Origin: Allokutzneria sp. NRRL B-24872
Lineage (GTDB): Bacteria > Actinomycetota > Actinomycetes > Mycobacteriales > Pseudonocardiaceae
Assembly: GCF_002155965.1 (NCBI RefSeq)
Contig: NZ_MUMH01000008.1
Location: forward strand, 1-33,071
Direction: 5' to 3'
DNA length: 33,071 nucleotides
Shown here: piece by piece, positions 12,057 through 14,712 of the stretch
How positions within the stretch are numbered: the first letter of the stretch is position 1
How the letters are laid out: each line of letters begins with the position of its first letter
The notes under the pieces: model-generated
What the model saw: only the letters and a program-made list of their open reading frames with translations
The model's database searches: none
What the model was told of the DNA's origin: nothing
Program-made: the position numbers and the translations under genes

Positions 12057-12131
12057 ATCGGGGTCTAGTGCCCCGTCGGCTACCGGCCCCGCACCCGCTA
12101 CCGGCACGATGGACGGCAACAGGAGGTGACC

Positions 12132-13025
12132 GTGTCGCAACCGAACCAGCTTCCCCCGTCACGGGAGAACCCGAGCCCGCCGAAGGGTCCCAGCGGCAAA
12201 CCAGTCCTCGCATGGTTCACCCAGCGCCGACTGATCGGGTTGAGCCTCGCGATCACGTCGCTGGTGCTCTGGCCGTTCACCGAGTGGTCGTGGTGGCCTC
12301 TTGCGGGCGCACTCGCATTCGGCTTCCTCGTCCGCATCCTGCGACTGGATCAACTGCTCCCGGGTTGGTCGGGCATCGCGACCCTGGCCGTCGCCGCCGT
12401 GTGGCTGGTGAACATCACGACCGGCTGGAGCTGGGCCATCCTTCTCGGCCTGCTCGTACTGGCCCTCGGGGTACCGAGGCTGCCGAGGTTCGAGCTGCTG
12501 ATCATCGGCGTGGTCCTCGTGGTCGTGGGAGCCGTCGGCGCGATCTGGTGGCGCATCGGCGACGAACAGGTGCGGGCGGAGCAGCGCGCCCAGGATTCGG
12601 CGTTCCTGCGGGTCAGTGGTTTGCCTCCGACACCGGTACGAGCGCTGCGGGCGCTGCTCGCCTACATCGGCAAGAACGACCCGGGCAACGGCCATCCCGA
12701 GGCACCAGGAGGCGCGTGCGGTCTGCTCTCCCCCGTTGCCCGTGCCGAGTTCGCATCGGCCAACAACGCTCCCGATTGCACGTCGGCGGTGCGCCTGCTC
12801 GCAGGGAAGGTCACCGATCCGTTGCGCTATCCGAAGGTCATCGAGAATCAAGTGAAGACCAAGGAGACCGGGATCTCCGCCAGCCTGGATGCGTGCCAAC
12901 TCTCCTGGGAACCCCCGATGAACAGCGCACCCGCAGGTGATCCGGGGCCACAGCTCGGCCGACTGGAACTCCAGAAGCAGATGAACGCCGGTTGGTTGAT
13001 CATGTCTTACAAGACGTCCTGCTAG
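12132..13025 (+). CDS. Membrane protein of unknown function with C-terminal extracytoplasmic domain
   Basis: A 297-aa protein. GTG 12132 is chosen because AGGAGG (12121-12126) lies 5 nt before it; the earlier GTG at 12126 overlaps that site. A Pro-rich cytoplasmic N-terminus of about 30 residues is followed by about five hydrophobic segments (roughly 35-48, 53-68, 80-96, 100-114, 120-140) rich in Trp. A domain of about 155 residues then follows with four cysteines (GGACGLL, PDCTSAV, LDACQL and the C-terminal KTSC), which could form two disulfides outside the cell. I do not recognise the family. It is divergent from rplJ and convergent with rplA, sharing a terminator with the latter. Confidence 0.8.
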   Translation: MSQPNQLPPSRENPSPPKGPSGKPVLAWFTQRRLIGLSLAITSLVLWPFTEWSWWPLAGALAFGFLVRILRLDQLLPGWSGIATLAVAAVWLVNITTGWSWAILLGLLVLALGVPRLPRFELLIIGVVLVVVGAVGAIWWRIGDEQVRAEQRAQDSAFLRVSGLPPTPVRALRALLAYIGKNDPGNGHPEAPGGACGLLSPVARAEFASANNAPDCTSAVRLLAGKVTDPLRYPKVIENQVKTKETGISASLDACQLSWEPPMNSAPAGDPGPQLGRLELQKQMNAGWLIMSYKTSC

Positions 13026-13102: not shown

Positions 13103-13819
13103 TCAGGCGGAGGCCTCGTCCGTCAGCAGCGCGCGGGTGCGGTTCGGGTCGACCGGGATGCCGGGGCCCGTGGTGGTGCTGAAGGTGACCTTCTTGATGT
13201 AGCGGCCCTTCGCGGCGGACGGCTTGGCCCGCAGGATCTCGTCGAGGGCGGCGGCGTAGTTCTCCACCAGCTTCTCGGTGTCGAAGGAGGACTTGCCGAT
13301 CACCAGGTGCAGGTTGGCCTGCTTGTCGACGCGGAAGTTGATCTTTCCGCCCTTGATCTCGTTGACGGCCTTGGTCACGTCGGGGGTGACGGTGCCGGTC
13401 TTGGGGTTCGGCATGAGGCCGCGCGGGCCGAGCACGCGGGCGATGCGACCGACCTTGGCCATCTGGTCCGGGGTGGCGATGGCAGCGTCGAAGTCCAGCC
13501 AGCCGCCCTGGATGCGGGCGATCAGCTCGTCCGAGCCCACGGCGTCGGCACCGGCGGCCTCGGCCTCGGCGGCCTTGTCACCGACGGCGAAGACGATGAC
13601 GCGGGCGGTCTTGCCGGTGCCGTGCGGCAGGTTCACGGTGCCGCGGACCATCTGGTCGGCCTTGCGCGGGTCGACACCCAGGCGCATGGCGACCTCGACG
13701 GTGGCGTCCATCTTGGTGGAGGCGGTGTCCTTGGCCAAGCCGACCGCCTGCAGCGGCGAGTACAGCTTGTCCTTGTCGATCTTGGTGGACGCCTCGCGGT
13801 AAGCCTTGCTGCGCTTCAT
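13103..13819 (-). CDS. rplA: 50S ribosomal protein L1
   Basis: A 238-aa protein of standard L1 length from ATG 13817-13819 with an AGGACAG site before it. It shows the L1 signature (RNLPHGTGK-type segment [15 protein letters not shown]) and the [17 protein letters not shown] motif in the second domain. L1 binds 23S rRNA at the E-site stalk and usually represses its own operon. Normally rplK precedes rplA; here rplA follows nusG directly with an 86-nt gap. Confidence 0.98.
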
Positions 13820-13845
13820 GTTCTGTCCTCGGTTCTGGATCAGTA

Positions 13846-13873
13846 GTGGTACGAGCCGCGCTGGCTCTCCCAC
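13846..13873 (-). promoter_or_regulatory. Candidate L1-binding translational operator upstream of rplA
   Basis: On the minus strand the mRNA can fold as an outer stem GTGG/CCAC (13870-13873 with 13846-13849), an asymmetric GA/GTA internal loop, an inner stem GAGCC/GGCTC and a 5-nt loop. An asymmetric internal loop between two short stems is the known form of L1-binding leaders that mimic the 23S rRNA site. It ends 26 nt before the rplA ATG. This is read from sequence only. Confidence 0.55.
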
Positions 13874-13905
13874 GCTTTCTTCTGTGGAACGACCGGCCGA
13901 GCCGG

Positions 13906-14712
13906 TCAGATCTTGGAGACCTGGGTGAAGGAGAGCTCGACCGGGGTCTCCCGGCCGAAGATCGACACCAGCACCTTGAGCTTCTGCGCGTCCGGGCTGA
14001 CCTCGCTGATGGTGGCGGGCAGCGTGGCGAACGGGCCGTCCATGACGGTGACGGACTCGCCGACCTCGAAGTCCACCTCGATGGTGGGCTTGGCGACGCT
14101 GGCGGCGGCCTTCTTGCCGGGCTCCGCGGCGGCCTTGTCCTTCTCCACCTGCGGGGCGAGGAACTTGAAGACCTCGTCCAGGGTCAGCGGCGAGGGCTTG
14201 GAGGTCGCGCCGACGAAGCCGGTGACGCCGGGGGTGTTGCGCACCGCGCTCCACGAGGCGTCGTTGAGCTCCATCCGGACCAGGATGTAGCCGGGCAGCA
14301 CCTTGCGCTGCACCTGCTTGCGCTGGCCGTTCTTGATCTCGGTGACCTCCTCGGTCGGCACCTCGACCTGGAAGATGAAGTCCTCCATGTCGAGGGTCCC
14401 GATCCGGGTCTCGAGGTTCGCCTTGACCTTGTTCTCGTAGCCGGCGTAGGAGTGCACGACGTACCAGTCACCGGGCGCGTGGCGCAGGGCCTCGCGCAGC
14501 TCGGCGACGGGGTCCTCGACGGGCTCGTCGACGTCCTCCGCCGACTCCTCAGACTCGTCGGTGTCCGCGGTGTCCACGTCGCCGACGGGGTCGCCTGCGG
14601 AGTCCTCGCCAACCGGTTCGACGTGCTCGGAGTCACCGTCGCTGGTCGCGGCGGCGTGCACCTGCTCGTCGGACAGGTCGGCCAGCTCCTGGCCGCCGTC
14701 GGTGGAGGTCAC
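13906..14712 (-). CDS. nusG: Transcription termination/antitermination factor NusG
   Basis: A 268-aa protein. The frame is open to an ATG at 14823, but GTG 14710-14712 gives the usual actinobacterial N-terminus (a long acidic extension of about 80 residues). The NGN domain begins near [18 protein letters not shown] and includes [13 protein letters not shown] and TPGVTGFVG. The KOW domain follows ([19 protein letters not shown] ... [17 protein letters not shown]). It couples RNA polymerase with Rho or the ribosome. It lies 195 nt downstream of secE in the classical secE-nusG order. What normally follows, rplK, is missing. Confidence 0.97.

Follow-up and report, generated by a model that had tools for sequence, protein, structure and literature searches.

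What becomes of ribosomal protein L11 in an actinomycete whose rplK gene is missing from its place between nusG and rplA is the question raised by the window considered here, a stretch of 33,071 nucleotides of Allokutzneria sp. NRRL B-24872. L11 is the target of a class of antibiotics and mediates the activation of RelA. According to an earlier note made from the window itself, L11 could be encoded elsewhere, for example with a thiopeptide cluster, the strain could live without it, or the assembly could have lost about 430 nt.

The gap between nusG and rplA and the remaining L11 gene

On the minus strand, the genes of the window are arranged in the order secE, nusG, an 86-nt gap, rplA, rplJ and rplL, with secE, nusG and rplJ named by eye from their translations and rplL by its place and size only. 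The rplA gene for ribosomal protein L1 (13103..13819, minus strand) shares 94 and 95% identity with rplA of two congeners, the Pfam and NCBIfam naming of its family having been done for the protein of a relative only, and nusG (13906..14712, minus strand) has an inferred start codon, the listed open reading frame extending to 14823. Delimited from the coordinates of the reading frames and a whole-genome search for L11, the gap (13820..13905, minus strand) separates the start of rplA at 13819 from the stop codon of nusG, which begins at 13906. Searched in full with the Pfam L11 profile, the draft of 8.19 Mb yielded one match, located on contig C8, and zero matches on contig C454, which carries the window, so that the absence of rplK from this place, as claimed by the earlier note, is confirmed. 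The comparison with sister strains asked for in that note gives the same picture, since two other Allokutzneria genomes also lack rplK there, with nusG-rplA gaps of 86 and 88 nt; one of them, G001, consists of a single contig of 8.6 Mb rated 100% complete. Between rplJ and rplA, the opposite strand of the window carries a 299-aa reading frame of unassigned function (12126-13025, plus strand).

The sole remaining L11, hereafter L11-B, is a divergent paralogue of 144 amino acids encoded on contig C8 (C8:2427-2861). The existence of this gene contradicts the idea of a strain living without L11, whereas the proposal of an L11 encoded elsewhere holds in part: the gene does lie elsewhere, as a divergent paralogue and not as a moved canonical gene, and its neighbours are not those of a thiopeptide cluster but a chitinase, ClpP, an LLM-type oxidoreductase and a GNAT protein (ClpP alone confirmed by Pfam, the others named by eye). 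Each of the two congeners possesses one L11, 94% identical to L11-B of contig C8 and adjoining the same LLM-type gene. L11-B is under purifying selection, with dN/dS values among the three Allokutzneria of 0.24-0.27, compared to 0.17-0.24 for rplA. The ClpP gene located between the chitinase and L11-B (L004:1608-2171, minus strand) was found at this position in neither of the two congeners.

The C-terminal, rRNA-binding half of L11-B is well conserved, and the protein is recognized by the Pfam profile of the C-terminal RNA-binding domain, PF00298, with 90.5 bits for a cut-off of 21.4. It remains under the NCBIfam equivalog cut-off of TIGR01632, with 125.7 versus 141.85 bits, while two L11-B from genomes with two copies score 122.7, below, and 142.2, just above the same cut-off; naming by standard cut-off can make genomes that possess L11-B only look L11-less. 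The N-terminal helix, NPAPPVGPALGQ in canonical L11, reads AAMVDLGKMLGP in L11-B, with one residue fewer. Compared to the canonical L11 of the family, which mostly display ANPAPPVGPALGQHGVN, the L11-B helix, A-AMVDLGKMLGPTGVN, is likewise one residue shorter. Two features characteristic of bacterial uL11 are absent, namely the proline-rich N-terminal helix PxPPVGPALG, from which P22, P23 and P26 (E. coli numbering, by our own count) are among the prolines gone, and the location of the gene between nusG and rplA. The two-domain L11 fold is nevertheless found in the AlphaFold2 model of a congener L11-B (pLDDT 81, pTM 0.58), whose top PDB match is ribosomal L11 with a TM of 0.84.

Distribution and phylogeny of L11-B

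Genomes occur in three states, with canonical L11 only, with both proteins or with L11-B only. Distinct L11-B-only genomes amount to 31, of which 12 are distributed in six genus groups of Pseudonocardiaceae and 19 belong to the Actinoplanes clade, where all 19 genomes tested are of this kind. The 58 family genomes tested comprise 12 with L11-B only, 35 with two matches (the second one in G180 being a fragment), 7 whose sole L11 gene is rplK and 4 in which no match was found. These 58 genomes consist of G010, equal to Herbihabitans at both stretches compared, and of 57 chosen out of 297 family genomes, comprising most of those with two PF00298 matches, the genomes whose single match had a low score, two further single-match genomes and the four devoid of any match. 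Since G010, a single-match genome outside the chosen 57, proved to have L11-B only, further such genomes may exist among the rest of the 297. The 29 genomes reached via named loci comprise 24 with L11-B only, four of which repeat the 57-genome sample, and 5 with both; the former belong to Herbihabitans, the Actinoplanes clade, Allokutzneria, Actinokineospora fastidiosa, Actinoalloteichus and Sciscionella. Four other genomes from the genus group of A. fastidiosa retain rplK. When 246 genomes were sampled across the class, the Allokutzneria genome studied here was the only L11-B-only one among the matches listed, and 3 genomes had two matches and 3 none. The second match of G391 ranks below those listed, for which canonical status was read from the score only in the case of all lower matches.

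At the locus itself, no rplK intervenes between nusG and rplA in any of the 24 L11-B-only genomes examined, nor in G013, a genome 74% complete in which no L11 was found, and none of the 31 distinct L11-B-only genomes contains a second L11. The control was provided by 14 other rplK-bearing genomes with rplA retrieved (9 + 5), all of which have rplK immediately before rplA; nusG was matched at the opposite flank of rplK in 13 (G319 being the exception). In the seven genomes of the family sample with a single-copy rplK, the gene follows nusG in every case, with rplA matched beyond in six. The reading that rplK is really present and was lost in assembly, in spite of a draft fragmented in 475 contigs, has practically no probability left, because the same gap in both congeners, one of them a single contig, contradicts a loss of about 430 nt from the assembly, and because the gap recurs throughout these L11-B-only genomes, all devoid of a second L11. 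The operon secE-nusG-rplK-rplA has lost its canonical rplK by deletion.

A tree was built from 76 L11 sequences and 143 columns (31 from L11-B-only genomes, 24 L11-B from two-copy genomes and 21 canonical). It unites the first 31 in a single clade with a support of 97/91, and a smaller tree recovers the same L11-B-only clade with 95/90. On a host tree built from the L1 and NusG sequences of 39 genomes, 7 changes are required to explain the rplK-less state, and starred branches force no fewer than 3 of these. As these L11-B form one clade while their hosts are distributed in two families, the trees suggest that a replacement-competent L11 spread between genera, the loss of rplK following.

The main rival to this transfer is the differential loss of old paralogues, according to which the duplication occurred in ancestors of both families and rplK was later lost several times without any horizontal transfer. 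It agrees with the two-copy genomes, common in Pseudonocardiaceae and also occurring in Micromonosporaceae and Streptosporangiaceae, and with the L11-B neighbourhood, which gene clustering shows to be conserved both in the Actinoplanes clade and in Amycolatopsis. However, the L11-B-only clade spans the two families and excludes the L11-B of two-copy genomes, and a forced grouping of the Micromonosporaceae L11-B, named after the first tree was known, is rejected with a p-AU of 0.013, so that we regard the old duplication as rather unlikely, though deserving serious attention. With respect to the genes around L11-B, a ClpP-like gene (~30-36% identity) lies beside it in 41/43 loci of the Actinoplanes clade, and one of these genes, read by eye, looks catalytically degenerate. 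In several two-copy genomes, L11-B is followed by a small reading frame of ~92-141 amino acids (gene cluster 19, 14 loci, including L139, L140, L146, L147 and Amycolatopsis loci).

The deletion left another element of the operon in place. In rplK-bearing genomes, a small hairpin sits between rplK and rplA, and this conserved hairpin (GTGG..GAGCC..GGCTC..CCAC), recognized by comparison among genomes, is retained in the window in spite of the absence of rplK (13846..13873, minus strand). It is kept directly before rplA in 15 L11-B-only genomes and in G013, those compared at the gap. A search of positions 13846-13873 of the window in Rfam gave no family at gathering score; RNAalifold on 24 hairpin pieces gave 8 pairs, of which 3 show one or more compensatory changes. 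The hairpin, which could be a leader or an L1 site, is probably a control element of rplA that the losses of rplK, given its position, would have spared.

The proline helix, thiopeptides and stringent control

The PxPPxG motif occurs in all 39 distinct canonical L11 and in none of the 89 distinct L11-B of the same set, even if some L11-B of two-copy genomes retain a proline at the first place of the motif. All 22 canonical rows of the family alignment, from which 10 further loci were left out, contain the proline motif. In the parts of the literature available to us, the thiazole rings of thiostrepton are described as stacking on P22 and P26 (PMC8183687), and proline mutations in the N-terminal domain of uL11 as lowering the binding and conferring resistance (PMC5960728); conversely, part of a review mentions one study in which L11 mutations left thiostrepton binding intact whereas rRNA mutations reduced it (PMC3917276). 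Since the segment changed in L11-B corresponds to the drug-contact helix, both thiopeptide resistance and a relC-like physiology are plausible.

Two further genus groups of the family show a similar alteration in rplK itself. G004, G038 and G071 possess a single L11, encoded at the normal place between nusG and rplA, with the helix NPASVGQALG (loci L297, L299 and L300), which has one residue fewer and is devoid of the drug-contact prolines. Because these three proteins group with the canonical L11 in the tree (100/100), the loss of their prolines is independent of L11-B; to judge from the sequences, the thiopeptide-contact residues were lost independently at least twice. With 137 bits, rplK of G004 comes near the weakest L11-B of the 57-genome family sample (140 bits), and the score alone therefore does not separate the two kinds, which are distinguished by operon place and tree.

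As to the producers of thiopeptides, A. fastidiosa has L11-B only, as seen in the genome of strain JCM 3276. The species is reported in part of one source as a producer of nocathiacins and thiazomycins (PMC8037709), and a part of another mentions a thiopeptide glycosyltransferase in strain JCM 3276 (PMC11406533). A thiazolyl peptide is also reported from Actinoplanes philippinensis, a species outside the genomes tested, in the title of a reference of PMC3917276, itself available in part. L11-B was seen inside no thiopeptide cluster, by eye on the Allokutzneria contig, by Pfam among nine reading frames of A. fastidiosa and by gene clustering at the other loci (80 clustered loci, in 3 of which the simple gene finder called no L11). 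Among the nine reading frames near L11-B of A. fastidiosa, Pfam recognizes MurJ, a subtilase, a MOSC protein, a methyltransferase, a flavin monooxygenase, a NUDIX protein, regulators and an EryCIII-like glycosyltransferase located about 5 kb from L11-B; one frame has no match, and neither YcaO nor dehydratase is present among the nine. The TsnR-type methylase was considered as another route of resistance and dropped, none being found in the 29 genomes searched.

The same helix also bears on stringent control. The changed segment covers the PALG tetrapeptide, reportedly lost in a Streptomyces relC mutant, and L11-B lies outside thiopeptide clusters wherever inspected. L11 is moreover identified as the relC product in part of PMC6784132. 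These observations would suit a specialized or regulatory form of L11 through which the stringent response is altered, thiopeptides having played no part in its fixation, a reading that we hold to be improbable. A full-length Rel occurs in 18/18 genomes, and none of the gap-free columns among 1224 separates the 13 L11-B-only from the 5 other sequences, which gives no support to a co-adaptation of Rel; in addition, the lost residues include those contacted by the stacking thiazoles (PMC8183687, in part), and in the two genus groups mentioned above rplK itself underwent an independent loss of these prolines. A co-adaptation of 23S rRNA at position 1078 (E. coli numbering, own count) was also considered: the first sample (18/23 genomes matched) displayed U in 12/12 L11-B-only genomes and C in 5/6 others, but the link vanished in the second, larger sample (54/80 genomes matched), with C in G314 and G315, two of the eight newly matched L11-B-only genomes, and U in many rplK-bearing genomes, and the idea was dropped. 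In Herbihabitans, an L11-B-only genome, the one copy of the 23S GTPase centre found (G297:C23:2158-2202) displays G1067 and A1097 (E. coli numbering, own count).

Taken as a whole, the explanation that we consider fairly probable is that of an rplK deleted from its operon, whose ribosomal place was taken by an L11-B with poor thiopeptide binding that spread between genera; the paralogue probably took over the essential ribosomal role under thiopeptide selection. L11-B would sit in the GTPase-associated centre and support growth alone, and its lack of the prolines located under the thiazole rings would leave the ribosome with little sensitivity to L11-directed thiopeptides. It would have spread between genera and displaced the resident rplK where thiopeptide exposure or production favoured it, while Rel would still work, perhaps with a changed trigger. 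Both the resistance and any change of the stringent response are predictions from sequence. Another role for L11-B is possible, as it is not seen in thiopeptide clusters and often occurs beside rplK. A broader picture, which we put forward tentatively as conceivable rather than probable, is that a thiopeptide-proof L11 moved between actinomycete families and displaced a near-universal rplK at least three times, leaving the Actinoplanes clade, Allokutzneria and Actinoalloteichus with ribosomes rebuilt at the factor-binding centre and a re-tuned stringent trigger, while other genera arrived at the same drug-contact change through a remodelled rplK. L11 has apparently been replaced outright, more than once, in nature, which predicts that the Actinoplanes clade, among other groups, is intrinsically resistant to thiopeptides, and makes the need of the proline helix for stringent control testable in living species.

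Relation to known L11 variants

Paralogues that stand in for a universal ribosomal protein also exist in the form of Zn-free L31 and L33, which switch with the zinc supply. In contrast, the case of L11-B involves an operon gene deleted for good and a change located at the drug- and factor-contact helix. Cluster-borne L11 paralogues beside rplK are already known, since part of PMC10704990 describes TclQ and TclT, from thiocillin/micrococcin clusters, as extra L11 of altered sequence, believed to shield the ribosome in thiopeptide producers, in likeness to L11-B. However, TclQ and TclT reside in the cluster beside a kept rplK, whereas L11-B was seen in no cluster and is the sole L11 of 31 genomes. 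The altered thiopeptide-contact prolines that define the TclQ type are found in L11-B, and even more strongly altered than in the TclQ-type copy compared, from a plasmid of S. hominis, which keeps PAPPVG with a threonine for the last proline, while L11-B lacks the whole PxPPxGP motif and one residue; the location within a thiopeptide cluster is not shared.

L11 is similarly altered in the proline mutants, whose changes fall in the N-terminal segment that is also modified in L11-B, and in the relC mutants described in parts of PMC5960728 and PMC6784132, but these are mutants of rplK and L11-B is a fixed, remodelled paralogue common to many species. Psi-footprinting uses rplK as a "resistance indicator" gene, whose duplication or phylogenetic incongruence marks inhibitor producers; the available part of that source (PMC9290621) does not describe a loss of rplK, and its table gives the Actinoplanes strain a minus for rplK. 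Full-text searches of the open-licence literature revealed no account of a paralogue of this kind entirely taking the place of rplK. Finally, a canonical-clade L11 of Nonomuraea gerenzanensis (L246:1501-1926) shares with the plasmid TclQ-type L11 the replacement of the motif's last proline by threonine.
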